From: Arenimonas terrae
GTDB taxonomy: Bacteria > Pseudomonadota > Gammaproteobacteria > Xanthomonadales > Xanthomonadaceae
DNA: 64,000 bases
Reading direction: 5' to 3'
Assembly (NCBI RefSeq): GCF_006265115.1
Contig: NZ_SMDR01000001.1
Coordinates: forward strand, 186,001 to 250,000
Shown here: positions 28,357-44,363 of the stretch, piece by piece
Layout: each line of letters opens with the position of its first letter
How positions within the stretch are numbered: the stretch's first letter is position 1
Position numbers and translations under genes: made by a program
The notes under the pieces: model-generated
What the model saw: the letters and a program-made list of their open reading frames with translations, nothing else
The model's database searches: none
What the model was told of the DNA's origin: nothing

Positions 28357-28755
28357 CTAGCGCAGGTCGGGGCGCGAATGGAAGGAGTGCTGGAGGAAAC
28401 GCAGCGCCGAGAGGATCTGTTCGACCCGCTCGGCGGAAACGCTGCCGATGCGCTCGCCCAGCTGGTCCTTGCGCACCGACGAGACCTGCGAGGCCAGCAC
28501 CACGCTTTCGCGCTCCAGTCCGCCTTCGCCGGCCGGCAGGCGCACCGTGCCGGGCTCCGAGCCGCGCCGGGCGTTGGTGGTGATGCCGCAGACGACGACG
28601 GTGTCGATGCGCGAATCGTTGAACAGGTCGTCCTGCACCACGACATGCGGGTGCCGGATCGGCGGCACCGAACCCTGCGGTCCGTCGGAAACGAGCCAGT
28701 AGAGGTCGCCGCGACGGATGGGGCGTTCGGACTGGCCCGAAGGGGGCAGGGTCAC
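28357..28755 (-). CDS. PemK/MazF-like type II toxin, no adjacent antitoxin
   Basis: A 132-residue protein resembling MazF/PemK endoribonucleases. IRRGDLYWLV at the N-terminus is the family's RGD-x-(Y/W) motif. It is followed by RHPHVVVQDD, a strand DTVVVCGITTN and a C-terminal helix with RVEQILSALRFL. These toxins normally cleave mRNA and are encoded after a small antitoxin. Here the gene directly upstream, abutting with no gap (TGA followed by GTG), encodes a DUF4256 protein instead. The start is GTG at 28755. Family membership is likely; toxicity is unproven. Confidence 0.8.
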   Translation of the reverse strand: MTLPPSGQSERPIRRGDLYWLVSDGPQGSVPPIRHPHVVVQDDLFNDSRIDTVVVCGITTNARRGSEPGTVRLPAGEGGLERESVVLASQVSSVRKDQLGERIGSVSAERVEQILSALRFLQHSFHSRPDLR

Positions 28756-30481: not shown

Positions 30482-31879
30482 CTAAACCCACCCAGTCGCG
30501 TAGAACAGCCCGATGATCACGAACACCGCCATCGTCTTGATGATCGTGATCGCGAAGATGTCCTTGTAGGCCTGGCGGTGGGTCAGGCCGGTGACGGCGA
30601 GCAGGGTGATCACCGCGCCGTTGTGGGGCAGGGTGTCCATGCCACCGCTGGCCATGGCGGCCACGCGGTGCAGCACCTCCATCGGGATGCCGGCGGCATT
30701 GGCGTTTGCGATGAAGGTGTCGGCCATCGCCGCCAGGGCGATCGACATGCCGCCGCTGGCCGAACCGGTGATGCCGGCCAGCGCGGTCACGGTCACTGCC
30801 TCGTTGACCAGCGGGTTCGGGATAGAGCCCAGCGCATTGGCCACCACCAGGAAGCCGGGCAGGGCGGCGATGACGGCGCCGAAGCCGTATTCGGAGGCGG
30901 TGTTCATCGAGGCCAGCAGGGCGCCGCCGATCGCGGGTTTGGTGCTTTCGGCGAAGTGCGTGGCCACCGCGCGCCAGGACAGCAGCAGCACGGTCAGGAT
31001 GCCGACCAGCAGCGCCGCTTCGACCGCCCAGACGGCGGCGATGCGCGGGATCTCCTGCACCACCGGCGCCGGGTCGCCGATCACCGACGGAAGGAAGGCG
31101 TGGCTGGCGCCGTAGTGCTGCGGGATCAGCACGGTGAACACCTTGTTCGACACGCCCACCAGCACCAGCGGCAGCAGTGCGATCCAGGGGTTGGCCAGCT
31201 TGTCGCCGGCAAACGGCGCGGGCTCGTTCACCAGTTCGGTGCCATAGCCTTCGCCCGCGGCCAGTGCGGCGCGCCGGCGCCATTCCAGGTAGCCCAGGCC
31301 CAGCGCCAGGATGAAGACGCCGCCCAGCGTGCCCAGCACCGGCGCGGCCCAGGCGTCGGTGCCGAAGAACGAGGCCGGGATGATGTTCTGGATCTGCGGC
31401 GTGCCCGGCAGCGCGTCCATGGTGAAGGTGAAGGCGCCCAGGGCGATGGTGCCGGGGATCAGGCGTTTGGGGATGTCGGCCTGGCGGAACAGTTCGGCGG
31501 CGAACGGGTACACCGCGAACACCACCACGAACAGCGACACACCGCCGTAGGTCAGCAGCGCGCACACCGCGACGATGGACAGCATGGCCCGCTGCGGCCC
31601 GAACAGCCGGATGGTGGCGGCCACGATCGACTTCGAGAAGCCCGAGACTTCGATGAGCTTGCCGAAGATCGCGCCCAGCAGGAACACCGGGAAGTACAGC
31701 TTCAGGAAGCCGACCATCTTGTCCATGAACAGGCCGGTGAACATCGGCGCGACCAGGGTCGGGTCGGTCAGCAGCACGGCGCCCATGGCCGCGATCGGCG
31801 CGAACAGGATCACGCTGTAGCCGCGGTAGGCGACCAGCATCAGGAAACACAGCGCCGCGAGCACGATCAGGAAGGACAT
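30482..31879 (-). CDS. GntP-family permease, candidate 3-hydroxybutyrate importer
   Basis: A 465-residue polytopic protein with about 12 helices. It belongs to the GntP family of gluconate, citrate or hydroxyacid:proton symporters, as judged from MSFLIVLAALCFLMLV, the TYGGVSLFVVVFAVYP segment, DALPGTPQIQNIIP, EYGFGAVIAALPGF, and SGGMDTLPHNGAVITLLAV near the C-terminus. Some GntP members carry D-3-hydroxybutyrate. The neighbouring PHB depolymerase, oligomer hydrolase and hydroxybutyrate dehydrogenase make that the best guess here. ATG 31879 is chosen because it starts directly at the first helix. It diverges from the TonB receptor across a palindrome-bearing intergenic region. Confidence 0.85.
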   Translation of the reverse strand: MSFLIVLAALCFLMLVAYRGYSVILFAPIAAMGAVLLTDPTLVAPMFTGLFMDKMVGFLKLYFPVFLLGAIFGKLIEVSGFSKSIVAATIRLFGPQRAMLSIVAVCALLTYGGVSLFVVVFAVYPFAAELFRQADIPKRLIPGTIALGAFTFTMDALPGTPQIQNIIPASFFGTDAWAAPVLGTLGGVFILALGLGYLEWRRRAALAAGEGYGTELVNEPAPFAGDKLANPWIALLPLVLVGVSNKVFTVLIPQHYGASHAFLPSVIGDPAPVVQEIPRIAAVWAVEAALLVGILTVLLLSWRAVATHFAESTKPAIGGALLASMNTASEYGFGAVIAALPGFLVVANALGSIPNPLVNEAVTVTALAGITGSASGGMSIALAAMADTFIANANAAGIPMEVLHRVAAMASGGMDTLPHNGAVITLLAVTGLTHRQAYKDIFAITIIKTMAVFVIIGLFYATGWV

Positions 31880-31942
31880 GCCTTCGCTTCCCCAGGGGAA
31901 ATCCAGGGCCCGAGTCTCCGCAGCGCGCGCGCCGGCGGCCAC

Positions 31943-31958
31943 CTGTACCAAGGTACAG
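31943..31958. promoter_or_regulatory. 16-bp palindrome, candidate operator (copy 1)
   Basis: CTGTACC-AA-GGTACAG is a perfect 7-2-7 inverted repeat between the divergent GntP permease and TonB receptor genes. A near-identical palindrome lies at 40698-40713 between two other genes of the locus. On the plus strand its centre is 31.5 bases before the first T of TAGTCT (31982-31987), a -10-like element for the TonB receptor. That places it near -42 to -44, typical for an activator. Confidence 0.7.
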
Positions 31959-32034
31959 TGCCCGGCCCCACGGGGCCGTCATAGTCTGCTGGGCGTCGGC
32001 CGTCCGGCCGTCCACACGCTTGCAAGGGGAGAAC

Positions 32035-34260
32035 ATGAAGCGCAACCACCTCAGCCTGGCCATCGGCCTGACCCTGACCCTCGGCGCCCTGCAGGCGCAG
32101 GCCCAGGAGTCCGCCGCGCCGGCGCCCGCCGCCGAAGGCGAGGCCGTCACCCTGGACGCGATCCAGGTCACCGCCCGCAAGCGCGAAGAGACGCTGCAGG
32201 AAGTGCCGGTCGCGGTCACCGCCTTCACCTCCGAATCCCTGGACAAGCTCAATGTCCGCGACCTCGGCGACCTCGACGCCCAGGTGCCGAACCTGACCAT
32301 CTACGCCGCGCGCGGCTCCTCGAGCACGGTCACCGCCTACATCCGCGGCGTCGGCCAGTCCGATCCGCTGTGGGGCGTGGACCCGGGCGTGGGCATCTAT
32401 CTCGACGACGTCTACATCGCCCGCCCGCAGGGCGCGCTGCTGGACGTGTTCGACGTCGAGCGCATCGAAGTGCTGCGCGGCCCGCAGGGCACCCTGTACG
32501 GCAAGAACACCGTCGGCGGCGCCATCAAGTACATCTCGCGCGGCCTGCCCACTGAAACCGAGGGCCGGGCCGAACTGACCGTGGGCAACTACGGCCAGGT
32601 CGACGCCAAGGCCTCGATCGGCGGCTCCTTCAACGAGGCCGACACGCTGCGCGGCCGCATCGCCCTGGCCAGCCTCAACCGCGACGGCTTCGGCGAGAAC
32701 GTGGTAACCGGCGACGACGTCAGCGACAAGAAGATCAAGGCCCTGCGCGGCCAGCTCGGCGCCTACGTCACCGAAGACTTCAACCTGCAGTTCGCCTTCG
32801 ACTGGATGGACGACACGTCCGGCGTGCGCGGCGCCCAGCTGCTGGAAGGCAACCGCTTCGTGCCGCTGGCGACGCCGATGGACAGCCGCTACGACGTACG
32901 CAACGGCATGCCCAACGTCAACGACACCTCGATGGCCGGCGCCTCGCTGACGGCGAACTGGCGCATCAACGACGACTGGAATGCGAAGTACGTGTTCGCC
33001 AAGCGCGAATCCGACACCGAGACCAACATCGACTTCGACCTGACCCAGTCCACCATCGCCGACGTCAAGGCCTTCTACAGCGACGAGCAGGTCAGCCACG
33101 AGATCCAGCTCAACTACGACGGCGGCGGCCGCCACCGTGGCGTGATGGGCCTGTACCTGTTCGACGGCGAAGCCGGCGGCCAGGTGCTCAACAACTTCTT
33201 CGGCCTGCTGTTCGGCGACACCCAGGGCACGGTCTACACCGACAGCCTGGCGGTCTACGGCGACTGGAGCTTCGACCTCAGCGAGAAGCTCAACCTCGAC
33301 GTCGGCGTGCGCTGGACCGACGAGGACAAGCGCGCCGACGTGCTCAACCGCGGCTACAGCGACGGCACCTACACCACGCCGATTTCGGTGGCGGCGAACT
33401 TCGACCGCACGATCAACTTCAAGAACATCTCGCCGCGCATCTCGCTCGGTTACCAGGCCACGGACGACATCCTGGTCTACGGCCTGGCGACCCGCGGCTT
33501 CAAGTCCGGCGGCTACAACATCCGCGCCCAGGCCACCGCGGTGCCGCGTTCGGCCGAACCCTTCGACGACGAGGTGGTCGACAGCTTCGAGGTCGGCACC
33601 AAGATGTCCTTCCTCGACCAGCGCCTGTTCCTGAACCTGGCGGCCTTCCACAACAAGTACGAAGACATCCAGCTGTCGGTGTTCACCGCCTACGACAGCA
33701 ACGGCGACGGCACCGACGACGCCTTCTTCGGCGATTTCACCAACGCCGGCGAAGGCACGGTCAACGGCTTCGAGGTCGAGTACCAGTTCCTGCCGACCGA
33801 GAACTGGCTGATCAGCGGCAACCTGGCCTGGCTCGACGGCGAGTACGACACCTTCATGTACGCCGGCCTGAACATCGCCGACGAGCAGGAGTTCACCAAT
33901 GCGCCCGAGTTCTCGGGGGCCTTCAATGTCGAGTACCGCACGGCCCTGGCCAACGGCGGCCGCCTCTCGGCCCGCCTCGGCTACAGCTACCAGTCGGAAG
34001 TGACCGCGACCACCGAGATCGTGCGCGCCGAAGTGCCGCCCAACGGCCGCCCGCCGATCATGCAGGACGGCTACGGCCTGATCAGCGCCGGCGTCATCTG
34101 GAACGTCAACGACGCCTGGACCCTGTCGCTGCAGGGCTCGAACCTGGCCGACGAGGAGTACCTGACCACGGGCTACAACCTCAACCGCGCGCTCGGCGTC
34201 TACACCGGCTTCTACGGCCCGCCGCGCCAGTACAGCCTGTCCGTGCGCTACGACTTCTGA
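32035..34260 (+). CDS. TonB-dependent outer membrane receptor
   Basis: A 741-residue outer-membrane protein. A signal peptide (MKRNHLSLAIG to AQAQ, about 24 residues) is followed by a TonB-box-like start (VTLDAIQVTARKREETLQEVPVAV), the plug domain with DVERIEVLRGPQGTLYGKNTVGG, and a beta-barrel ending in the aromatic-terminated SVRYDF. ATG 32035 has AGGGGA five bases upstream. The ligand is unknown. Because of the shared palindromic operator and the neighbours, uptake of hydroxybutyrate oligomers or a related compound is an inference to test. An intrinsic terminator follows 28 bases after the stop. Confidence 0.9.
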   Translation: MKRNHLSLAIGLTLTLGALQAQAQESAAPAPAAEGEAVTLDAIQVTARKREETLQEVPVAVTAFTSESLDKLNVRDLGDLDAQVPNLTIYAARGSSSTVTAYIRGVGQSDPLWGVDPGVGIYLDDVYIARPQGALLDVFDVERIEVLRGPQGTLYGKNTVGGAIKYISRGLPTETEGRAELTVGNYGQVDAKASIGGSFNEADTLRGRIALASLNRDGFGENVVTGDDVSDKKIKALRGQLGAYVTEDFNLQFAFDWMDDTSGVRGAQLLEGNRFVPLATPMDSRYDVRNGMPNVNDTSMAGASLTANWRINDDWNAKYVFAKRESDTETNIDFDLTQSTIADVKAFYSDEQVSHEIQLNYDGGGRHRGVMGLYLFDGEAGGQVLNNFFGLLFGDTQGTVYTDSLAVYGDWSFDLSEKLNLDVGVRWTDEDKRADVLNRGYSDGTYTTPISVAANFDRTINFKNISPRISLGYQATDDILVYGLATRGFKSGGYNIRAQATAVPRSAEPFDDEVVDSFEVGTKMSFLDQRLFLNLAAFHNKYEDIQLSVFTAYDSNGDGTDDAFFGDFTNAGEGTVNGFEVEYQFLPTENWLISGNLAWLDGEYDTFMYAGLNIADEQEFTNAPEFSGAFNVEYRTALANGGRLSARLGYSYQSEVTATTEIVRAEVPPNGRPPIMQDGYGLISAGVIWNVNDAWTLSLQGSNLADEEYLTTGYNLNRALGVYTGFYGPPRQYSLSVRYDF

Positions 34261-34288
34261 TGCCGATGTTTCCCCGGGAACTTTCCCA

Positions 34289-34316
34289 ACGGGCCGCGCA
34301 AGCGGCCCGTGTTTTT
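34289..34316 (+). terminator. Intrinsic terminator after the TonB receptor gene
   Basis: ACGGGCCGC-GCAA-GCGGCCCGT is a 9-bp stem with a GCAA tetraloop followed by GTTTTT. It ends the receptor transcript and argues that the next gene starts downstream of it. Confidence 0.9.
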
Positions 34317-34370
34317 GGCGGACGCGTCGACCCGCACGCGAGCAGCGTTCCCGGCAGCGGCACCGCGCGA

Positions 34371-35381
34371 GTGGCTCGTTTTTCGGGCGGACTCTTGGCG
34401 ATCGCCGTGCTCTGCGGTTGCGCCGCGGAGCCGGCGCCGCCGCTGCCGGCGCTGGCGATCGACGCCGACCGGATCGCGGTCGCGGGCCTGTCTTCGGGCG
34501 CCTACATGGCCACGCAGGTCCACTTCGCCTGGTCGGACCGGCTGCGCGGCGCGGCGCTGGTGGCGGGTGGACCTTACGGCTGCGCCGGCGGCTCGCTCGA
34601 CACCGCGCTCGGGCCCTGCATCGAAGCCAAGCCTTTCACGCCCGATCCGGAGCGGCTGGCGAAAAAGCTGCGCGAACGCGCGGTGCGTGGCGACATCGCG
34701 CCGCTGTCGGGCCTGGCCGGCGACCGGGTCTGGCTGCTGCACGGCCGCGAAGACCAGGTCGTCGCCGCGGCAGTGGTGGATTCGGCGCAGCAGCTCTACC
34801 GCCAGCTCGGCGCCGACGCGCCCGGGCTCACCGTGACCCGCGAAACCGGCGACTTCGGCCACGTGCTGCCGACGTTGTTGGCCGGCGCCGACTGCGTCGC
34901 CGGCGGCCCGCCGCACCTGGGTGCCTGCGGCCGGGACGCGGCCGGCGAGGCGATGCAGGCCCTGTTCGGCGAGCCCGGCGCGGAAGCGGGCGAGGCCAGC
35001 GGCGAACTGCGCCGCTTCGGCCAGGAGGCTTACCTCGAGCCCGGGCAGGACGCCCAGCTCGCCGTCGACGGCTATCTCTACCTGCCCGCCGCCTGCGCGG
35101 CCGGCGAGCGCTGCGGTCTGCTGGTCGCCTTCCACGGCTGCGAACAGAACGCCGACCGGGTCGGCGAGGCCTTCGTGCGCGACGCCGGCTTCAACCGCTG
35201 GGCGGACGTGCACCGCGTGGTGGTGCTGTATCCTCAGGCGCGATCGAGCTATCTGCCGCTGAATCCAAAAGCATGCTGGGACTGGTGGGGCTACACGGGA
35301 CCGGACTACGACACCCGTCGCGGCGCGCAGCTGCGCTGGCTGGCGTCGGCGATGGCGGCGATCGGCGCACCGCTGCAATGA
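34371..35381 (+). CDS. Lipoprotein PHB depolymerase, type 2 catalytic domain
   Basis: Predicted extracytoplasmic alpha/beta hydrolase cutting poly(3-hydroxybutyrate). From GTG 34371 the 336-residue protein has a short lipoprotein signal ending LCGC (lipidated Cys17). It then has the esterase box GLSSG (catalytic Ser41), a WLLHGREDQVV segment with a candidate acid, FGHVLP with a candidate histidine, and the LLVAFHGCEQN oxyanion-type motif characteristic of short-chain-length PHA depolymerases with a type 2 catalytic domain. The frame is open back to 34260, but that would include a terminator. The start is therefore inferred from the signal peptide. No substrate-binding domain is seen, so oligomers or intracellular-type amorphous polymer are also possible substrates. 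Confidence 0.8.
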   Translation: MARFSGGLLAIAVLCGCAAEPAPPLPALAIDADRIAVAGLSSGAYMATQVHFAWSDRLRGAALVAGGPYGCAGGSLDTALGPCIEAKPFTPDPERLAKKLRERAVRGDIAPLSGLAGDRVWLLHGREDQVVAAAVVDSAQQLYRQLGADAPGLTVTRETGDFGHVLPTLLAGADCVAGGPPHLGACGRDAAGEAMQALFGEPGAEAGEASGELRRFGQEAYLEPGQDAQLAVDGYLYLPAACAAGERCGLLVAFHGCEQNADRVGEAFVRDAGFNRWADVHRVVVLYPQARSSYLPLNPKACWDWWGYTGPDYDTRRGAQLRWLASAMAAIGAPLQ

Positions 35382-35397
35382 CCGCCGGCAGGGCGCC

Positions 35398-38300
35398 GTG
35401 CTGACCGACGGCCTGGTCGTCGGGGCCGGCCTGCTCTGGCTGGGCCTGCTGTTCGGCACTGCGCTGTGGGCCGAACGGCGCCCGGGCCTGCTGGCGAAAC
35501 AGTGGCCGGTGGTCTACAGCCTGTCGCTGGCCGTGTACTGCACCTCGTGGACCTTCTACGGCACGGTGACCCAGGCGCAGCGCTCGGGCTGGCCGATCCC
35601 GCCGACCTTCCTGGGCACGATCCTGCTGTACGTGCTGGGCTTCGGCTTCCTGCTCAAGCTGCTGCGGCTGGCGCGCGAGCACAACTCGACCTCGCTGGCC
35701 GACCTGGTGGCGACGCGGCTGGGCCGCAATTCCTGGCTGGCGGCCGTGGTCACCTTCGTCGCGGTGCTGGGCATCGTTCCCTACATCGCGCTGCAGCTCA
35801 AGGCGGTGGCCATGAGCTACGGCATGCTCACCCGCGCCTCCGACCTGGCGCCGCCGCCGTGGCAGGACAGCGCGCTGTACGTGGCGCTGGCGATGGCGCT
35901 GTTCGCGATGCTGTTCGGCACGCGCCGCGCCTCCGCGGCCGAACACAACCGCGGGCTGGTGCTGGCGATGGCGGTCGAGTCGCTGCTCAAGCTCGGCGCG
36001 ATGCTGGCCCTGGGCGCCTTCGTCTGGTTCGGGCTGGACCTGCCGGACGTGCCGGCCGCGCCGCCGCCGCCCGACGGCGCCAGCGGTTTCCCGGCCCTCG
36101 TGCTGCTGGGCGCGCTGGCGATGTTCACGCTGCCGCACCAGTTCCACGTCGGCATCGTCGAGTGCCGCGACGAGACCCAGCTGCGCACGGCGCGCTGGCT
36201 GTTCCCGCTGTACATGGGGGTGATCGCGCTGCCGATCCTGCCGCTGGCCCGCGCCGGCGACGCGCTGCTGGCGCCGATGGGCGTGCCTTCCGACCTGTAC
36301 GTGCTGGCGCTGCCGCTGGCACAGGGCCACGAGGCGCTGGCCCTGCTGGCCTTCCTGGGCGGGCTCAGCGCCGCGACCGGCATGGTCATCATCTCGACCC
36401 TGGCGCTGAGCGTGATGATCGGCAACCACTGGCTGGCGCCGCTGCTGGTGCGCGGCCGCTGGGCCGGCGGCGGCAAGGGCGCCGACCTGCGCGGCGCGGT
36501 GCTGATGCAGCGGCGCATCGGCATCCTGGTGGTGGTGCTGCTGGCCTGGCTCTACAGTCGCGCCATCGCCGGCAGCGACGCGCTGGCCGATATCGGTGCG
36601 CTGTCGTTCTCGGGCCTGGCGACGCTGGCGCCGGCGGTGGGCTTCGCGGTGTGGCGGCCGCAGACGCCGGCGCGCGCGGTGCTTGCGGGCGTGGTGGCGG
36701 CGGTGCTCGTGTGGATATGGGTGCTGCTGGTGCCGGCGCTGGCCGAGGCCGCGGGTCATTCCGCGCCGTGGCTCGTGCAGGGGCCGTTCGGCCTGGCCTG
36801 GCTGGCGCCGGACGCGATGTTCGGCCTGGGCGAGTGGAGCCGCATCGGCCGCGCCACCGCCCTGAGCCTGCTGGCCGGGGCGGGCGTGACCTGGGTGCTG
36901 GCCTCGCGGCTGGACGTGGCGCCGGACCGTGCGGTCGGTGGCGGACTGTCGCGCGCCGGGCTGCGCGAAGTCGCGGCGCGGTTCCTGCCGGCGCAGCGCG
37001 TGGACGCGGTGCTGGCCGACACCGGCGCCGACGCCGCGGTGCCGGCCGAGATCGAGCAGCGCATCGAACGCGAGCTGGCGGCGGTGCTGGGCGCCGCCTC
37101 GGCGCGCCTGCTGCTCGACGCCGCGCGGCGCGAACAGGGCCGCGACCTCGACACCGTCGCCACCATCGTGGGCGAAGCCTCGCAGGCGCTGCGCTTCAAC
37201 CAGCGCGTGCTCGAGGCGGCGCTGGAGAACATGAGCCAGGGCATCAGCGTGGTCGACGCCGAGCTGCGCCTGGTGGCCTGGAACCGGCGCTATGCCGAAC
37301 TGTTCGACTATCCGGCGACCCTGCTGCAGGTCGGTGTGCCGGTGTCGGAGCTGGTCGCGCACAACGTGCGCCGCGGCCTTGCCGGCCCGGGCCGCGGCGA
37401 CGGCGAGGTGGGCAAGCGCATCGCGCACATGCGCGCCGGCACCCCCTACGTCGCCGAGCGCCGCTTCGGTGAGACCGTGGTCGAGATCCGCGGCAACCCG
37501 ATGCCCGGCGGCGGTTTTGTCGCCACCTTCACCGACGTCACCGATTTCCGGCGCAACGAGCAGGCGCTCAAGTCGGTGGCCGAGACGCTGGAGCAGCGCG
37601 TCGCCGAGCGCACCGCCGAACTGGCCGGCGCCAAGGGCGAGGCCGAGCGCGCCAACCGGGCCAAGACCCGCTTCCTGGCGGCGGTCAGCCACGACCTGGC
37701 GCAGCCGCTCAACGCCGCCCACCTGTTCGTGCACGCGCTGGCACCGCAGCTGACGGAGCGCCGGCATGTCGAAGCGCTGGTCAATATCGACGGTGCGCTG
37801 GGTTCGGCCGAATCGCTGCTGGCCGGCCTGCTCGACATCTCGCGGCTCGACGCCGGCGGCATGGAGCCGAAGGAGCAGGCCTTCCGCATCGGCGACCTGC
37901 TGCAGCATCTGGCCGCCGAATTCCGCGTGCTGGCGGCCGAGAAGCGCCTGCCGCTGGACTGCGTCGGCACCGGGGCCTGGGTGCGCAGCGACCCGCAGCT
38001 GCTGCGCCGCGTGCTGCAGAACTTCCTGGGCAATGCGGTGAAGTACACGGCCCGCGGCCGCATCCTGGTGGGCGTGCGCCGCCGCGGCGACGCGCTGTCG
38101 ATCGAAGTCTGGGACACCGGCCCCGGCATCGCCGAAAGCGACCAGAGCCTGATCTTCGAGGAGTTCCGCCGGCTCGACCGCGGCGGGCAGGGGCTGGGCC
38201 TGGGCCTGGCGATCGCCGAGCGCATCGCGCGCCTGCTGGGGCATCCGCTGCGGCTGCGCTCCTGGCCGGGGCGCGGCACCATGTTCGCAATCGATGTGCC

Positions 38301-38721
38301 GCGCGCGGCGCCGGCGCCGGTGGCCGCGGCGGCGCCGGAACCCGCCACCCCGGAACCACCGCGCAGCCGCGTGCTGGTCGTGGACAACGACGCCGACGTG
38401 CTTCGAGCCATGCAGGCCCTGCTGGGCGGCTGGCAGTGCGAGGTGCTGGCCGCGCGCGACGCCGACGAGGCGCAGCGGCTGGCCGCCGGCGCGATGCCGG
38501 ACCTGCTGCTGCTCGACTTCCACCTCGACGGCGGCGACACCGGCCTGGCCCTGCGCGAACGCCTGGCGGCGACCCTGCCGGCGCGACCCTGCGTCATCAT
38601 CACCGCCGACCACAGCGCCGACGTGCGCGACGCAGTCGCCGCCGCCGGCTGCGTGCTGCTGCACAAGCCGCTCAAGCCGCTGGCGCTGAAGTCGGTGATG
38701 TCCCGACTGCTGGCACGCTAA
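35398..38721 (+). CDS. SSS-transporter-linked hybrid sensor histidine kinase
   Basis: A 1107-residue membrane sensor. Residues about 1-480 form a sodium:solute-symporter-like 13-helix domain. A PAS domain follows near 605-715, then a HisKA dimerisation domain with phospho-accepting His765 in AAVSHDLAQPLNAA, an HATPase domain with NAVKYTARG, DTGPGI and GLGLGLAIAERIA, and a C-terminal receiver with Asp1040 in LLLLDFHLDGG. This architecture matches the CrbS/MxtR type of kinase, which in other gammaproteobacteria works with a LuxR-type regulator to control acetate use. Here it is embedded in the PHB locus, so a short organic acid such as 3-hydroxybutyrate is a candidate signal. The start is GTG at 35398. 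Confidence 0.92.
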   Translation: MLTDGLVVGAGLLWLGLLFGTALWAERRPGLLAKQWPVVYSLSLAVYCTSWTFYGTVTQAQRSGWPIPPTFLGTILLYVLGFGFLLKLLRLAREHNSTSLADLVATRLGRNSWLAAVVTFVAVLGIVPYIALQLKAVAMSYGMLTRASDLAPPPWQDSALYVALAMALFAMLFGTRRASAAEHNRGLVLAMAVESLLKLGAMLALGAFVWFGLDLPDVPAAPPPPDGASGFPALVLLGALAMFTLPHQFHVGIVECRDETQLRTARWLFPLYMGVIALPILPLARAGDALLAPMGVPSDLYVLALPLAQGHEALALLAFLGGLSAATGMVIISTLALSVMIGNHWLAPLLVRGRWAGGGKGADLRGAVLMQRRIGILVVVLLAWLYSRAIAGSDALADIGALSFSGLATLAPAVGFAVWRPQTPARAVLAGVVAAVLVWIWVLLVPALAEAAGHSAPWLVQGPFGLAWLAPDAMFGLGEWSRIGRATALSLLAGAGVTWVLASRLDVAPDRAVGGGLSRAGLREVAARFLPAQRVDAVLADTGADAAVPAEIEQRIERELAAVLGAASARLLLDAARREQGRDLDTVATIVGEASQALRFNQRVLEAALENMSQGISVVDAELRLVAWNRRYAELFDYPATLLQVGVPVSELVAHNVRRGLAGPGRGDGEVGKRIAHMRAGTPYVAERRFGETVVEIRGNPMPGGGFVATFTDVTDFRRNEQALKSVAETLEQRVAERTAELAGAKGEAERANRAKTRFLAAVSHDLAQPLNAAHLFVHALAPQLTERRHVEALVNIDGALGSAESLLAGLLDISRLDAGGMEPKEQAFRIGDLLQHLAAEFRVLAAEKRLPLDCVGTGAWVRSDPQLLRRVLQNFLGNAVKYTARGRILVGVRRRGDALSIEVWDTGPGIAESDQSLIFEEFRRLDRGGQGLGLGLAIAERIARLLGHPLRLRSWPGRGTMFAIDVPRAAPAPVAAAAPEPATPEPPRSRVLVVDNDADVLRAMQALLGGWQCEVLAARDADEAQRLAAGAMPDLLLLDFHLDGGDTGLALRERLAATLPARPCVIITADHSADVRDAVAAAGCVLLHKPLKPLALKSVMSRLLAR

Positions 38722-38722
38722 C

Positions 38723-38768
38723 CCGGGGTCAGAGTGCATTTATCCAGATAAATGCACTCTGACCCCGG
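38723..38768. repeat. Perfect 21-bp inverted repeat, REP-like palindrome
   Basis: Two exact 21-bp arms are separated by CCAG. The half-site includes GGGGTCAGAGTGCATTTAT. It fills the gap between two convergent genes, the kinase and the oligomer hydrolase. Sequences beginning GGGGTCAGAGTG are, as I recall, scattered in Xanthomonadaceae genomes as repetitive extragenic palindromes linked to REP-associated transposases. It has no T-run, but as RNA it would form a very stable hairpin and could terminate or protect both transcripts. Only one copy is visible in this window. Confidence 0.8.
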
Positions 38769-38782
38769 ATTAGCGCTTGCGC

Positions 38783-40663
38783 TCAGCGTGGGGCGTCCAG
38801 GTTTTCCGGCGTCAGCGGCGCCAGCGCGCCGTTCGCGAAGGGGCGTGGTGTGGTCTGGATCTCGGCATCGCCCGGCAGGGGAGCGCCTTCCGCCACCGTC
38901 GCCCAGGCGGCATCGAGTGCGCGGTAGCCGTAGGGCAGCATCGGCACGTAGCGCATGGCCAGCACCGGCAGGCCGAGGAAGGCGTCGAAGTGCTGGGCGT
39001 TGCGCACGCGCCAGTAGCTGACCGGGCGCGCGCTGGCGTCGGCCCAGCGCGCGTAGGCGGCGCCGCTGAAGGCTTCCGGCACCAGGCCGTCGTCGGCGCC
39101 GTGCACCACGATCACCGGCAGGCCGGCGCGGGGCAGGGCGGCGCGGGTCTGGGCGATGCCGGCGCGCACGGCGCCCCCGGCGTCGTCCCAGAGGCCGCGC
39201 AGGCAATTCAGTCCCGGCAGGGCAGGGTCGGCGCCGCTGGCCTGGCCATCGAGCAGGCCGATGCCGGTGCCCGGCGGGATGCCGCTGCCGTCGCTCCACC
39301 AGGCCGCCTGTTCGGCCGCGGTCGGCGCGCGCGGTCTGCCGTCGGCGCCGAGCACGGCGAAGCCGTAGCCGCAGGGCATCGCCGACGCCGGCGTGCGCGC
39401 ATAGGCCGACGCATAGGTGACGTCCACCGCGCGCCACAGATCGAAGCCGGTGCTGAGCGCGCCGGCGGCGATGGCCTCGTCGGTCCAGCCCGCGGCTTTC
39501 AGGGTCGCGTGCGCGGATTCGGCCTGGGCTTCGGCGCTGTCGCCCTCGAGGCGGCCCGCCGCCTTTAGCGAAGCGCAGCGCAAGGTGCCGGCCGGGTGCT
39601 TGCCGCCGTTCGGGCGCGCCAGCAGCACGCCGTCGAAGGCGGCGGCGTTGAGCGCGCAGGGCATCCACACCGCGGCTTCGGTGCCGTAGTCGTAGAGCGC
39701 GCGGCCGCCGTCGCCGGGCAGTATGTTGGGCGATACCGCGACCACGGCATCGAGCCAATCGCCCTCGAGCTCCGCCGCCCGCAGCACCGCGCCGCCGCCG
39801 TTGGACACGCCCACGGCGATCACGCGCGTGTTCCGGAAGGTCCAGGGGCCATCGCCGGGATGCGCCGTGTCCAGCACCTGCAGCGCGAACTGCGCCGCCT
39901 GCTGCACGTGCCGGCCCCAGTCGGCTTCCGGGTTGTCGCCGGAATGCGCGTGTTTGACCGCGATGCGCGGCGCGTCCTGATTGGCCGCCATCGCCGCGTC
40001 CGGCGCGAATTCAACCGGCGCGCCTTTCGCCGCCACGCGGCCATCGATGCCGAATCCGCGGCCGCCTTCCGCGACGTAGCCGGTTCCGGCGCCCTTGTCG
40101 GTGTAGGCCACCGCGCAGCCGCGCGGCAGGCCCCAGGCGCCCGCCAGGGCGATCGCGCCGTACACGCCGCGCGAGCCGGAGGATGCGGTCACCACCACGC
40201 AGCGTTTGCCGGCATCGAAGGCATCGGGCAGCTGCACCAGCACGCGGTGCGGCTGATTGCGCCCGGGCAGCCGGGCGAAGGCGTGGTATTCGCGGCCCGG
40301 CACCGGCTGCAAAGTGCCGTAGACGCTGCCGTAGCCGCCGCCGGGCGCGAGGTCGGCGATGCCGCGCCAGTTGGTCCAGATCGCGCGCCGGCGCAGTTCC
40401 GCGGCGGTCGGCTGTTCGGGGTTGGCGAAGGCCGGTGGCACGGGGTTGCGCAGGCCGGCTTCGCCCAGGCCGGCGGTCAGCAGATCGTCGCCGTCGGCGT
40501 GGGCATGCAGGTGGACGCCCGCGTCCAGCGCCAGCGCCGGCGCGCGTTCGGCGGTGCCTGCGCAGGCCGCCAGCGCAAGCGCCAGCAGCGACAGCGCCAG
40601 TGGGCGCGAGCGGCGATCCCAGCGCGGCTGGGGGCGGGACGGCAAGGTCGGCATCGGGTTCAT
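38783..40663 (-). CDS. 3-hydroxybutyrate oligomer hydrolase (lipoprotein)
   Basis: A 626-residue extracytoplasmic hydrolase of the D-3-hydroxybutyrate oligomer hydrolase family. It has a long lipoprotein signal (SLLALALAACAG). The mature part contains the family segments RRAIWTNWRGIADLAPGGGYGS, RVLVQLPDAF, TASSGSRGVYGAI, and the nucleophile motif GVSNGGG with Ser287. PVIVVHGADDGLVP supplies a candidate acid and NAQHFDAFL a candidate histidine. It would finish PHB breakdown to monomers. It diverges from the hydroxybutyrate dehydrogenase gene. TAAGGT on this strand (first T at 40675) lies only 12 bases from the ATG, suggesting a leaderless or nearly leaderless mRNA. Confidence 0.9.
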   Translation of the reverse strand: MNPMPTLPSRPQPRWDRRSRPLALSLLALALAACAGTAERAPALALDAGVHLHAHADGDDLLTAGLGEAGLRNPVPPAFANPEQPTAAELRRRAIWTNWRGIADLAPGGGYGSVYGTLQPVPGREYHAFARLPGRNQPHRVLVQLPDAFDAGKRCVVVTASSGSRGVYGAIALAGAWGLPRGCAVAYTDKGAGTGYVAEGGRGFGIDGRVAAKGAPVEFAPDAAMAANQDAPRIAVKHAHSGDNPEADWGRHVQQAAQFALQVLDTAHPGDGPWTFRNTRVIAVGVSNGGGAVLRAAELEGDWLDAVVAVSPNILPGDGGRALYDYGTEAAVWMPCALNAAAFDGVLLARPNGGKHPAGTLRCASLKAAGRLEGDSAEAQAESAHATLKAAGWTDEAIAAGALSTGFDLWRAVDVTYASAYARTPASAMPCGYGFAVLGADGRPRAPTAAEQAAWWSDGSGIPPGTGIGLLDGQASGADPALPGLNCLRGLWDDAGGAVRAGIAQTRAALPRAGLPVIVVHGADDGLVPEAFSGAAYARWADASARPVSYWRVRNAQHFDAFLGLPVLAMRYVPMLPYGYRALDAAWATVAEGAPLPGDAEIQTTPRPFANGALAPLTPENLDAPR

Positions 40664-40697
40664 CGCCCGACCTTAGCAATGGCGCGTGCGGCCGGCA

Positions 40698-40713
40698 TCG
40701 TACCTTGGTACGA
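40698..40713. promoter_or_regulatory. 16-bp palindrome, candidate operator (copy 2)
   Basis: TCGTACC-TT-GGTACGA is a perfect 7-2-7 inverted repeat between the divergent oligomer hydrolase and hydroxybutyrate dehydrogenase genes. Its core matches the copy at 31943-31958. Its centre is 30.5 bases from the first T of TGC-TAGGGT on the plus strand (40736-40741) and also 30.5 bases from the first T of TGC-TAAGGT on the minus strand (40675-40670). The two promoters are thus arranged symmetrically around one site. Confidence 0.75.
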
Positions 40714-40772
40714 CGCGCCGCCGCGGCGGCCCTGCTAGGGTGGGAAATCCCTATCGCCCCAAGGACTTCGCC

Positions 40773-41582
40773 ATGAGCGACCGCTTCCTCGCCGGCCGCT
40801 GCGCCCTGGTCACCGGCTCGACCTCGGGCATCGGCCTGGCCATCGCCCGCAGCCTCGGCGCCGCCGGCGCGCGGGTCGCCGTGAACGGTCTGGGCACGCC
40901 CGAACAGATCGCCGCGGCGCTGGAGTCGGTGCGCCAGGCCGGCGCGCCCGAGGTCCGCCATTTCGGCGCCGATCTGTCGGATGCCGCGGCCATCGAAGCG
41001 ATGATGGCCGACCTCGCCGCCTGGGCGCCGGTGGACGTGCTGGTGAACTGCGCCGGCGTGCAGCACACCGCGCCGATCGCCGAGATGCCGGCCGCGACCT
41101 GGGAAAAACTCATCGCCATCAACCTCAGCGCCGCCTTCCACACCATGCGCCTGGCGCTGCCGGGCATGGCCGCGCAGGGTTACGGCCGCGTGGTCAACAT
41201 CGCCTCGGTGCACGGCCTGGTGGCGTCGGTGAACAAGTCACCCTACGTCGCCAGCAAGTTCGGCCTGATCGGGCTGAGCAAGGTCGCGGCGCTGGAGTAC
41301 GCGGCCGCCGGCAGCCGCGCCAGCGGCGGCGTCACCGTGAACTGCGTCTGCCCGGGCTGGGTCGAGACGCCGCTGATCGAACCGCAGATCGCCGCCCGCG
41401 CCTCCGCGGTGCACGGCGACCGCGAGGCCGGCGTGCGCGAGCTGCTGCGCGAGAAGCAGCCCAGCGGCCGCATGTCGCTGCCGGAGGAAATCGCCGACCT
41501 GGTCGTGTGGCTGTGCCGCCGCGAAGCGCACAACCTCAGCGGCGCCGCGCTGCCGGTGGACGGCGGCTGGACCGCGCAATAG
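40773..41582 (+). CDS. 3-hydroxybutyrate dehydrogenase, SDR family
   Basis: NAD-dependent short-chain dehydrogenase expected to oxidise D-3-hydroxybutyrate to acetoacetate, 269 residues. The Rossmann motif TGSTSGIG is at 14-21, NCAG at 92-95, and the catalytic set N117, S145, Y158 and K162 (YVASK) is complete. NCVCPGWVETPLIEPQI and a long helical segment before the C-terminal LPVDGGWTAQ are typical of bacterial 3-hydroxybutyrate dehydrogenases. ATG 40773 follows AAGGA. The context of PHB hydrolases supports the substrate, but other SDR substrates cannot be excluded from sequence alone. Confidence 0.85.
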   Translation: MSDRFLAGRCALVTGSTSGIGLAIARSLGAAGARVAVNGLGTPEQIAAALESVRQAGAPEVRHFGADLSDAAAIEAMMADLAAWAPVDVLVNCAGVQHTAPIAEMPAATWEKLIAINLSAAFHTMRLALPGMAAQGYGRVVNIASVHGLVASVNKSPYVASKFGLIGLSKVAALEYAAAGSRASGGVTVNCVCPGWVETPLIEPQIAARASAVHGDREAGVRELLREKQPSGRMSLPEEIADLVVWLCRREAHNLSGAALPVDGGWTAQ

Positions 41583-41591
41583 CCCGCTGGC

Positions 41592-41897
41592 TCATTTCCA
41601 GTTCGACAGCTCGGCGTCGGTGATGCGGCCGTTGCGGTCGGTGTCGACCAGCCTGAACTCGCTGGCGAGCGCGTGGTCGGCAGGAACCTCCGAACGCACC
41701 ACGACGCCGTCGCCATTCTGGTCGAGCTGGGCCACGGTGGCCTGGTAGTCGTCGCTGTTGGGAATCGGCGGCTGCACGGACTTCACCGTGACCGGACCGG
41801 TGGTGGCCTCGAACTGGACTTCGCTGGTCGGGGTGACCTGGGCCTGCGCGGCGGCGGCGAACAGCGTCGCGGAAAGCATGATCGTCAAACGTTTCAT
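41592..41897 (-). CDS. Secreted EF-hand protein
   Basis: A 101-residue protein with a cleavable signal peptide (about 1-20, ending AQAQ). It has two canonical 12-residue calcium-binding loops, D59-N61-D63-V65-E70 and D85-D87-N89-R91-E96, each with acidic residues at positions 1, 3, 5 and 12 as required. It is probably a periplasmic or secreted calcium-binding protein; its partner is unknown. It converges with the dehydrogenase gene, the stops being nine bases apart. Confidence 0.85.
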   Translation of the reverse strand: MKRLTIMLSATLFAAAAQAQVTPTSEVQFEATTGPVTVKSVQPPIPNSDDYQATVAQLDQNGDGVVVRSEVPADHALASEFRLVDTDRNGRITDAELSNWK

Positions 41898-42051
41898 GTC
41901 GTTCTCCCTTCGGGGTGGAGTGCCACGACCATGAACATCGCGGGACGAACGGTGCGTGAATCGCGGACCCCGCGTTCAGGTGGGGTTTCGTCTGGCGTAA
42001 AGCGCCGGCGGCGAAGGCGGTAGAGTCGGGCAAGCCCCCACGGACCCTGCC

Positions 42052-43266
42052 ATGGACCTCAAGAGCGGTTATCCCTACTGGGCGGTGAAGAACGGGCTGA
42101 TGCACGCGTTTCCGCGGCTGGAGGCGGATGCGCAGGCCGACGTGGCGATCATCGGCGGCGGCATCACCGCGGCCCTGGTGGCCGATGAGCTGTGCCGTCA
42201 TGGGCATTCGGTCATCGTGCTAGAACAGCGCGACGTCGCCTGGGGCAGCACTGCGGCCAGCACGGCGCTGCTGCAGTACGAGATCGACACGCACCTGGTG
42301 GACCTTACGCGCAAGGTCGGCCTGCCCGATGCCGTGCTCGCCTACCGGTCCTGCGTCGACGCGGTGCGCGAACTCGGGCGGCTGGCCAGGGCGTTTCCCG
42401 ATGCCGGCTTCCGCAGGCAGGACAGTCTCTATCTGGCCTCGCGCGCAGGGCATGTGCGCGGCATCCGCCGCGAGTTCGAGGCGCGGCGGCGCGCCGGCAT
42501 CGAGGTCGAGTGGCAGGACCGCGACGCGCTGCGCTCGGATTTCGGGCTGGACGCCCCGGCCGGCCTGCTGACGCGGCCCGCGGCCACGGTCGATCCCTAT
42601 CGCCTGGCCTACCGGCTGCTGATGCGCGTGGAGAAAAAGGGCGGCCAGGTCCACGACCGCACGCGCGTGCTCGACATCACCACCTCGGCGCGGCGCGTGG
42701 AGCTGCATACCGAAGGCGGTCCGGTGGTGCGCGCGGGCCGCGTGATCATCGCCGCGGGTTACGCTTCGCAGGCGTGGTTGCCCAAGGCCGTGGCGAAGAA
42801 CCGCAGCAGCTACGCCTTCATCTCGGATCCGGTGGGCGCGGAGCGCCTGGGCTTCCTGTCGCGCACGCTGGTCTGGGAGTCGGCGCGCCCCTATCTCTAC
42901 CTGCGCAGCACCACCGACGGCCGCCTGCTGGTCGGCGGCGAGGACGATGCGGTGGACATTCCGGCGCGGCGCGACCGGCGGGTGGAGAAGAAGCAGGCGA
43001 AACTTCAGCGGCGGCTGGCCGGCCTGTTCCCGGACCTGGAGCTGACGCCTGCCTTCGCCTGGGCCGGCACTTTCGCCGAAACCGCCGACGGCCTGCCGTA
43101 TTTCGGGCCGCATCCGGCCCATGGGCCGCGCGTGCTGTTCGCGCTGGCCTATGGCGGCAACGGCATCACCTACAGCCTGCTGGGCGCGGGACTGCTGCGC
43201 GCGCGCATAGAATCGCAGCCGCATCCGCTGGCCCGACTGTTTTCGTTCGAGCGGACCGCGGGCTGA
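42052..43266 (+). CDS. FAD-dependent oxidoreductase, DAO family
   Basis: A 404-residue flavoprotein of the D-amino-acid-oxidase/glycine-oxidase-like superfamily. The dinucleotide-binding motif VAIIGGGITAALVADEL is at 31-47 with the ribose-binding acid in VLEQ near 57-60. Other features are a helix with TAASTALLQYEID, AGRVIIAAGY near residue 235 and a C-terminal FALAYGGNGITYSLLGAGLL flavin-contact segment. The substrate is not evident. It stands alone between the EF-hand gene and a disordered small protein. Confidence 0.85.
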   Translation: MDLKSGYPYWAVKNGLMHAFPRLEADAQADVAIIGGGITAALVADELCRHGHSVIVLEQRDVAWGSTAASTALLQYEIDTHLVDLTRKVGLPDAVLAYRSCVDAVRELGRLARAFPDAGFRRQDSLYLASRAGHVRGIRREFEARRRAGIEVEWQDRDALRSDFGLDAPAGLLTRPAATVDPYRLAYRLLMRVEKKGGQVHDRTRVLDITTSARRVELHTEGGPVVRAGRVIIAAGYASQAWLPKAVAKNRSSYAFISDPVGAERLGFLSRTLVWESARPYLYLRSTTDGRLLVGGEDDAVDIPARRDRRVEKKQAKLQRRLAGLFPDLELTPAFAWAGTFAETADGLPYFGPHPAHGPRVLFALAYGGNGITYSLLGAGLLRARIESQPHPLARLFSFERTAG

Positions 43267-43297
43267 GCGGCCGACCGGAAAGGATTGGAGCTTTCTG

Positions 43298-43327
43298 AAA
43301 AAAATGCCCCGGCGCGAGCCGGGGCAT
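43298..43327 (-). terminator. Intrinsic terminator for the small disordered-protein gene
   Basis: ATGCCCCGGC-GCGA-GCCGGGGCAT is a 10-bp stem. The A-run at 43298-43303 becomes a T-run on the minus strand, so it terminates the gene at 43346-43543. It could also slow read-through from the FAD oxidoreductase gene. Confidence 0.85.
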
Positions 43328-43345
43328 CGGTTCATCGGTCAGGCT

Positions 43346-43543
43346 TCAGCGGCCGGTGTTCTGCCCGGCGCGATCCTTATCCTGGCCCGGCATTTCCTTG
43401 CCGCCTTCCTTGGCGTCGCGGTCGGCGTCCTTCTGGCCCGGCTGGCTGCGGTCCTGCTGGCCCGGGGCGTTCTTGCCCGGCTGGCCCTGCTGGCCCTTGT
43501 CCTGCGGGTTCGGGGTGGTCTGGTTGTTCTGGTTGTTGGCCAT
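43346..43543 (-). CDS. Small disordered Gln/Gly/Asp/Lys-rich protein
   Basis: A 65-residue protein composed almost entirely of hydrophilic residues. It has repeated PGQ/GQQ and DKD/KDAD pieces and no hydrophobic core. It has a GGAG site before its ATG and its own terminator, so it is probably expressed. Composition resembles stress-induced hydrophilic proteins (hydrophilin-like), but I cannot assign a family. Confidence 0.65.
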   Translation of the reverse strand: MANNQNNQTTPNPQDKGQQGQPGKNAPGQQDRSQPGQKDADRDAKEGGKEMPGQDKDRAGQNTGR

Positions 43544-43703
43544 CTTGGAGTTCTCCGTTGGGGGGATGTCGGAAAGCTACCGACGGGAAGAGTGCAGCAA
43601 TGTCCGTGCCACGCCGATGTGGTTCAGCAGCCGATACCGACGGCGGAAGCGATTGCGCGGCCTCCGGGTTTCCCGGTGGCGGAGGGCGACATACCATGAG
43701 GCC

Positions 43704-44363
43704 ATGCATCGACTGCTGATCGCCGACGACCATCCGCTCTACCGCCTGGCCCTGACCCAGGCCGTGCGCGGCGTGCTGCCCGACGCGGTGATCGCCGAGG
43801 CCGAGGACATGCCGGGCGTGCACGCCGCGCTGGCCGCCGCGCCCGACACCGACCTGGTGCTGCTGGATCTGCACATGCCCGGCAGCCACGGCCTGATGGG
43901 CCTGGCTTCGCTGCGCGCCGAGCACCCCGGCGTGGCGGTGGCGATGATCTCCGCGCACGAGGATCCGGTGACGATCCGCCGCGCGCTGGCCTATGGCGCC
44001 GCCGGCTACCTGACCAAACGCGCTGATCTGTCGGAGCTGCAGGCCGGCCTGCGCGCTGTGCTGGCCTGCGAGGAATGGCTGCCGCCGGCCCTGCGCGAGC
44101 CGGTGGCGCGTGCTGCCGCCGATCCGGGCGACCGGGAGACGGCGGCCCGGCTCGCCAGCCTCAGCCCGCAGCAGTTCAAGGTGCTGGCGCGCGTGGCCGA
44201 AGGGCGGCTCAACAAGCAGATCGCCGACGAGCTCGGCATCCAGGAGCGCACGGTGAAGGCGCACATGAGCGCGATCTTCGAGAAGCTCGGCGTGCGCAAC
44301 CGCACCCAGGCCGGCGTGCTGCTCGGGTCGCTGGCGCTGGCCGACCCGGCACGCGAGGCCTAG
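43704..44363 (+). CDS. LuxR/NarL-family response regulator
   Basis: A 219-residue two-component response regulator. The receiver domain has acidic residues D8/D9, phospho-accepting D55 in LVLLDLHMPG, and the conserved lysine in YLTKRAD. The C-terminal LuxR helix-turn-helix (about 155-205) contains LSPQQFKVLARVAEG, NKQIADELGI and ERTVKAHMSAIFEKLGV. No histidine kinase is adjacent, but the SSS-type hybrid kinase 5 kb upstream belongs to a class known to pair with such regulators (CrbS/CrbR). It is the prime candidate to bind the palindromes at 31943 and 40698. Confidence 0.92.
   Translation: MHRLLIADDHPLYRLALTQAVRGVLPDAVIAEAEDMPGVHAALAAAPDTDLVLLDLHMPGSHGLMGLASLRAEHPGVAVAMISAHEDPVTIRRALAYGAAGYLTKRADLSELQAGLRAVLACEEWLPPALREPVARAAADPGDRETAARLASLSPQQFKVLARVAEGRLNKQIADELGIQERTVKAHMSAIFEKLGVRNRTQAGVLLGSLALADPAREA

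Follow-up and report, generated by a model that had tools for sequence, protein, structure and literature searches.

The locus and its two palindromes

The window considered here, the whole stretch of 64,000 nucleotides (nt) of Arenimonas terrae DNA that was analysed (contig NZ_SMDR01000001.1, positions 186,001 to 250,000), includes a locus whose genes appear to serve the use of extracellular polyhydroxybutyrate (PHB) and 3-hydroxybutyrate (3HB). Its genes include two divergent pairs, a permease facing away from a TonB-dependent receptor and a 3HB-oligomer hydrolase facing away from a 3HB dehydrogenase, as well as a depolymerase, a hybrid sensor kinase and a response regulator (Table 1). Each divergent pair is separated by an intergenic region with a perfect palindrome, termed operator 1 (permease/receptor) and operator 2 (hydrolase/dehydrogenase). 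A sequence-only reading of this DNA had placed the two palindromes at coordinates that proved exact when the sequence was re-read, and had interpreted them as activator sites. That interpretation is supported by the analysis presented below, with binding, activation, the phosphorelay and the inducing compound all predicted from sequence; what was missing from it is the likely regulator, a protein of CrbR type whose kinase is encoded in the same locus.

Table 1. Genes, palindromes and predicted promoter elements of the PHB/3HB locus (window positions; distances run from the palindrome centre to the start of the hexamer)
Feature	Positions	Strand	Basis or remark
GntP-family permease	30482..31879	-	tblastn 74% to plasmid genes annotated GntP family permease; no Pfam or NCBIfam match (Pfam empty even at E 10)
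-10-like GAGACT, permease	31913..31918	-	32.5 nt from operator 1 centre
Operator 1, CTGTACCAAGGTACAG	31943..31958	.	between permease and receptor genes (divergent)
-10-like TAGTCT, receptor operon	31982..31987	+	31.5 nt from operator 1 centre
TonB-dependent receptor	32035..34260	+	Pfam PF00593, PF07715
Extracellular short-chain-length polyhydroxyalkanoate depolymerase, type 2	34260..35381	+	NCBIfam NF050059, 309.2 bits (cutoff 280)
Hybrid sensor kinase, CrbS-like (transporter-like N-terminus, PAS, HisKA, HATPase, receiver)	35398..38721	+	
3HB-oligomer hydrolase	38783..40663	-	Pfam PF10605, 428.3 bits
Extended -10 TGC-TAAGGT, hydrolase	40670..40675	-	30.5 nt from operator 2 centre
Operator 2, TCGTACCTTGGTACGA	40698..40713	.	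between hydrolase and dehydrogenase genes (divergent)
Extended -10 TGC-TAGGGT, dehydrogenase	40736..40741	+	30.5 nt from operator 2 centre
3HB dehydrogenase	40773..41582	+	NF009093, 279.3 bits (cutoff 258); TIGR01963, 285.9 bits, below cutoff 307
LuxR/NarL-type response regulator, CrbR/ErdR paralogue	43704..44363	+	proposed binder of both operators

A palindrome with 7-nt arms and a 2-nt gap is ordinary in itself, because the window holds 20 perfect inverted repeats with this gap and arms of at least 7. What sets the two operators apart is their exact common sequence and the two places where it stands, rather than symmetry or a genome-wide excess. The common core GTACCNNGGTAC (GTACC-NN-GGTAC) is matched twice in the window (0.00 expected from 100 shuffles) and twice in the entire genome of 3.31 megabases (Mb), both times at the PHB locus, and the backward control has no match; the palindromes are therefore confined to this locus, as had been claimed, and the exact motif is not scattered through the coding DNA of this genome. 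The looser GTACNWWNGTAC recovers genome-wide only the same two palindromes, its backward control likewise giving two matches. A wider regulon within the A. terrae genome was considered and rejected: there is no third exact site, and a scan allowing one mismatch returned 24 sites (both palindromes counted in) versus 37 for the control, and thus no excess.

Conservation in related loci and genomes

Related loci were taken from a hydrolase scan as the best 80 of 361 relatives, mostly Lysobacteraceae, which together span 1.45 Mb. In these 80 loci there are 84 matches to the core GTAC-N-(AA or TT)-N-GTAC, all of them within the same two intergenic regions, and nine control patterns have 0 to 5 matches each in the same DNA. 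Upstream of the hydrolase lie 68 of the 84 and in the permease/receptor region 15; the remaining match (L049), scored elsewhere by the script, was placed by hand and also lies upstream of a hydrolase -10 element and ATG, which raises the count to 69 of 80 loci. Among the 12 loci in which the script found no strict core upstream of the hydrolase, six carry near variants (L060, L070, L080, L087, L091 and L092), and the others include L049, L033, where the contig ends, and two loci with no regulator in the stretch (L051 and L096).

The permease/receptor regions are more varied. The strict core is present in 15 of 39 and absent in 24, a degenerate operator 1 pattern matches 38 of the 39, and diverged forms such as TTGTCCGAAGGTACAG stand at the same place; both TGGTACCAAAGTACGA and TTGTCCGAAGGTACAG occupy the equivalent positions in Lysobacter and its kin. 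Counted by half-site in the 38 regions and the window, operator 1 is TAC/GTA in 16 cases, TCC/GTA in 21 and TCC/GTC in 2.

Within the genus, TGTACCNNGGTAC is present in eight of nine genomes, A. terrae itself included. At the level of the family (70 genomes), GTACNAANGTAC lies at most 400 nt upstream of the hydrolase in 38 of the 51 genomes that have this gene. The sequence-only reading had proposed to look for enrichment in related genomes, and such enrichment is found in placement, not in number: the 70 genomes contain 100 GTACNAANGTAC sites (38 at the hydrolase, 8 within 15 kilobases (kb) and 54 farther away) against 97 for the backward control. The loose core is special in its placement only, not in its overall frequency, and the notion that all GTAC-N4-GTAC sites belong to one regulon was rejected on these counts. 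Of the 54 far sites, 23 are GTACAAATGTAC, which we take to be a LexA2-like form; at these sites in family genomes (L134, L135 and others) a recurrent palindrome stands just before a start codon (GGTGTACAAATGTACACC), unrelated to the PHB locus.

Twenty regions with loose-core sites were chosen by hand, 18 with other spacers and 2 with AT, and 14 more far sites with other spacers were left out. Seven of the 18 proved to be permease/receptor intergenic regions, three have a MerR-like form and eight have no assignment. Six of the seven permease/receptor regions lie far from a hydrolase gene and the seventh at 7.5 kb; the retention of the site at pairs so far removed suggests a trans-acting factor, and loss from orthologous intergenic regions, which had been named as a possible objection, is not what is seen. 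In five of the regions (L117, L119, L120, L123 and L124) the receptor is paired with another permease, about 37-39% identical to that of the window, and the operator between the two genes is kept. Elsewhere (L121, L122 and L132), TCCGTACNNNNGTACGGA palindromes near ATG codons resemble operators of MerR type.

Some relatives carry ACCTGTACCTTGGTACAGGT, which to our eye resembles a lux box, and in three loci (L028, L033 and L035) the palindrome is perfect over 20 base pairs; the candidate regulator, moreover, has a DNA-binding domain of the same GerE type as quorum-sensing LuxR-type proteins. That the site is a lux box bound by such a protein nevertheless deserves almost no credence, and the idea was rejected, because operator 2 does not retain the outer CT..AG and the genome has no match to the autoinducer-binding family PF03472.

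The candidate regulator and its kinase

CrbS/CrbR, also called MxtR/ErdR, is a system for acetate that consists of a hybrid kinase resembling a transporter and an activator of LuxR type (PMC5715377, PMC8402216). In Pseudomonas fluorescens, CrbR activates acs through an inverted repeat, the ACTU, located at -52 to -36, of which CTTGACCAAGGTCGATT and CGCTACCATGGTCGAAT are examples (PMC5715377, Table 4). The kinase of the PHB locus has the same general organisation: it passes the NahK/ErcS C-terminal model NF041832 (403.6 bits, cutoff 400), contains PAS_7, and has an N-terminus that matches the solved histidine kinase 10ed_A (E=1.2e-45), with no Pfam match even at E 10. For the regulator the best NCBIfam model is ErdR, at 205.5 bits against a cutoff of 390, and the acs-linked paralogue described below also falls short of that cutoff (244.5 bits); by these scores the regulator is a paralogue of CrbR/ErdR and is not classed as ErdR itself.

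The regulator gene is linked to the site-bearing divergent genes in 75 of the 80 loci, and in all 75 it is encoded on the other strand from the hydrolase. The two genes are within 350 nt of each other in 40 loci, 350-1800 nt apart in 32 (gaps of the size of a dehydrogenase gene) and farther apart in 2; in the one remaining locus the extrapolated start of the regulator overlaps that of the hydrolase by 15 nt. In all 42 loci that have both genes, the kinase comes after the receptor in the same orientation. It is therefore probable that the regulator is under the control of operator 2 and the kinase under that of operator 1, an arrangement that would amount to positive feedback. The dehydrogenase and the regulator of the window, however, are separated by an oxidase gene and two minus-strand open reading frames (ORFs), and feedback on the regulator may therefore have been lost in A. 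terrae. The oxidase gene, for an FAD enzyme in the interval 41592-43703, occupies this place in the window and in L031, unlike in most relatives, and the two ORFs encode an EF-hand protein (41592-41897) and a glutamine/asparagine-rich protein of 65 amino acids (43346-43543).

Geometry of the four divergent promoters

The spacings previously given between palindrome centre and -10-like hexamer are correct for the receptor, the dehydrogenase and the hydrolase, and the constancy read from them extends to the relatives. On the receptor side, the best-scoring hexamer lies at 30.5-32.5 nt in all 39 regions, window included, and more narrowly at 31.5 or 32.5 nt in 37 of them (38 of 39 on the permease side). 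The permease promoter, which had been thought to lack a good -10 element at this distance, has GAGACT at 32.5 nt in the window, and 35 of 39 regions conserve GANACT 30.5-32.5 nt from the centre. Operator 2 was compared in 75 regions, the window among them (the pattern failed to match the other 6 of 81): the hydrolase -10 element starts at a distance of 30.5 nt from the centre of the site in 70, the TG extension is present in 61, and in 62 the ATG begins 6 nt past the element. These spacings put the centre of the site at a predicted position of about -42 to -44, which is that of a class II activator. In the window the predicted start of hydrolase transcription is 40663, the A of the ATG, and the hydrolase mRNA is therefore probably leaderless (40661-40675).

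MerR-type operators sit between the -35 and -10 elements of promoters with a long spacer. An operator of this type was ruled out by position, the site centre being 30.5-32.5 nt upstream of the -10 element.

The same geometry bears on an alternative in which the palindromes would bind a repressor, or a dual regulator, that is released by 3HB. Symmetric palindromes are often bound by repressors, and the site abuts the -35 region; yet no -35-like hexamer is present at any of the four window promoters, the spacing to the -10 element is constant, and the characterised relative, CrbR, is an activator (PMC5715377). Moreover, a scan of the window ORFs around the locus, which did not extend to the flanking genes of the 80 loci, turned up no further regulator gene. 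Repression is thus judged quite improbable.

Comparison with the acs-linked paralogue

Kinase and regulator each have a second counterpart in the A. terrae genome, at 46% and 47% identity respectively; that of the regulator is encoded at C3:197716-198354, directly downstream of acs. The acs promoter carries AGACGATGGTCTAA, the sole genome match to a degenerate pattern derived post hoc from acs sites, with the -10-like hexamer CAGAAT at 30.5 nt. The acs gene thus has its own linked regulator and its own site of GAC type, and a regulon that includes acs is not indicated by the two exact sites, which are found only in the PHB locus.

This contrast was followed through 30 family genomes, in which 19 acs genes have a linked regulator and 11 do not; linkage was counted for regulator hits above 45% identity (which drops L163, at 30.5%), the acs site patterns required GTC on one side, and TAC/GTA sites were scanned for separately. 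An ACTU-type site is present at acs in 19 of 19 genomes with a linked regulator versus 1 of 11 without (Fisher p=3.7e-7), and in the single unlinked case (L153) acs lies 103 bases from a contig end, where a linked regulator may have been cut off. The 19 regulator-linked sites comprise 18 GAC/GTC, one mixed TAC/GTC (L155) and no TAC/GTA, and the separate scan found TAC/GTA sites at none of the 30 acs genes. Upstream of the hydrolase, TAC/GTA is found in 73 of 80 loci and GAC/GTC in 3.

The regulators divide in the same way. A tree of 70 PHB-locus regulators (that of the window and those of 69 loci) together with 19 acs regulators, from which sequences with 150 or fewer aligned residues were left out, separates the two groups into two clades with support of 100/100. 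At residue 180, 68 of the 70 PHB regulators have Q and all 19 acs regulators have S; at residue 182, every PHB regulator (70) has R and every acs regulator (19) has A. Alignment to NarL shows that these residues open a helix, presumably the recognition helix, which begins QER in 68 of the 70 PHB regulators and SEAT(V/I)KAH in all acs regulators. The joint change of helix and half-site suggests a recognition code and does not prove one, because it is a single contrast between two clades. Among the PHB-locus regulators, that of L030 (91% identical) groups inside those of Arenimonas, and its contig bears the label of a Rhizobium metagenome bin; this label is therefore probably wrong.

These comparisons also bear on the proposal that the acs-linked CrbR itself binds both operators as part of one acetate regulon, the local regulator doing something else. 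The two regulators are of the same family and their boxes have the same architecture, TAC half-sites also occur in the ACTU of P. fluorescens, as in CGCTACCATGGTCGAAT (PMC5715377), and the acs site of L155 is mixed. The acs site of the same genome is nonetheless of GAC type, whereas both PHB sites are of TAC type on both halves; the two clades differ at residues 180 and 182, and it is the local regulator that accompanies the sites from locus to locus. Binding of the operators by the acs-linked protein is accordingly considered unlikely.

Proposed mechanism

The two palindromes are, with high probability, class II activator operators of a dedicated two-component system, paralogous to CrbS/CrbR, for the use of extracellular PHB and 3HB. 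This reading draws on the uniqueness of the site in the genome, its conserved placement, the constant spacing to the -10 element, gene order, paralogy, and the match between helix and half-site. Several observations weigh against it. The pairing of regulator and operator depends on linkage, paralogy and a correlation between helix and site that amounts to a single evolutionary contrast, and the regulator scores below the ErdR cutoff. Among the hydrolase-bearing family genomes, 13 of 51 have no strict core upstream of the gene, and the loose core shows neither an overall excess nor, in more than half of its occurrences, any proximity to the hydrolase. L072 and L074 have the regulator and no clear site upstream of the hydrolase. 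Operator 1 has drifted, with a left half of TCC rather than TAC in 23 of 39 regions and a right half of GAC type in L071 and L073. On the dehydrogenase/regulator side, TANNNT is found at 29.5-33.5 nt in just 48 of 75 regions, and of the 20 acs promoters with a site only 8 show a -10-like hexamer spaced as for class II. Finally, a joint loss of regulator and operator was not demonstrable among the five of 80 loci with no regulator match (L033, L051, L061, L066 and L096): in L033, L061 and L066 the contig ends between 3 and about 1100 bases away on the side where the regulator is expected, and L051 and L096 still have a site, in variant or degenerate form.

According to the mechanism favoured here, the hybrid kinase, which has a transporter-like N-terminus, would act as the sensor, with the LuxR/NarL-type response regulator as its partner. 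A dimer of the phosphorylated regulator would bind TACC-AA-GGTA, the centre of the site lying some 42-44 nt before each start, and would recruit RNA polymerase in class II fashion at four divergent promoters that have no -35 element, each operator serving the two promoters that point away from it. Operator 1 would drive the permease gene and the receptor-depolymerase-kinase operon, and operator 2 the hydrolase, from a leaderless mRNA, and the dehydrogenase; in most relatives operator 2 probably also drives the regulator gene, which would close a loop of self-feedback.

A broader account has perhaps an even chance of being right. Under it, a duplicated CrbS/CrbR acetate switch would have been given to extracellular PHB and 3HB use in the Lysobacteraceae and insulated from its acetate twin by the change of S/A to Q/R at residues 180 and 182 together with the one-base change of GAC to TAC in the half-sites, with single symmetric class II sites that would each serve two opposed promoters, possibly in a mutually exclusive way, and a leaderless hydrolase mRNA. 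The system provides a predicted regulator, operator and set of four promoters for the use of PHB and 3HB in much of a bacterial family, a pathway for which no described control was listed among the papers surveyed. Because the acetate twin is present in the A. terrae genome and in its relatives, the two regulators would also form a natural pair in which to test how a response regulator of LuxR type alters its DNA half-site after duplication, as well as a test case for a single symmetric class II site that serves two divergent promoters.

Other features of the window

Between the convergent kinase and hydrolase genes lies a perfect hairpin with 22-bp arms (38723-38768). One of its halves is found elsewhere in the genome (L110, L112/L113), which makes it a dispersed repeat, perhaps, we presume, of REP/RAYT-like kind. 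Elsewhere in the window, a minus-strand gene (28357-28755) encodes a PemK/MazF-like toxin of a toxin-antitoxin pair and adjoins a DUF4256 gene.

Comparison with known systems

In Pseudomonas, 3HB use is regulated by HbcR, a sigma-54 enhancer-binding protein. The PHB locus differs in having -10-like elements and a regulator of NarL/LuxR type. Among the papers listed, as judged by titles and the openings of abstracts, none linked CrbR/ErdR or an SLC5-type kinase to 3HB use; with subscription papers largely absent, this is limited evidence for the novelty of a CrbR-type system directed to PHB and 3HB.

RpuS/RpuR of Sinorhizobium fredii is an SLC5/STAC two-component system that controls a pyruvate symporter operon and has its own promoter motif (PMC9100948). 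Like the system proposed here, it is a second two-component system turned to another carbon source; it differs in its target, and the two are likened by description rather than by motif sequence.

The closest resemblance is to CrbS/CrbR, which shares with the PHB locus both the combination of a transporter-like hybrid kinase with a LuxR-type regulator and, in the ACTU, an inverted repeat with an ACC-NN-GGT core next to the -35 position (PMC5715377). The differences are these: the half-sites of the PHB locus are TAC rather than GAC, its targets are genes for PHB and 3HB, and its regulator forms a separate clade with a different start to the recognition helix, in a genome that also retains an acs-linked, CrbR-like regulator.

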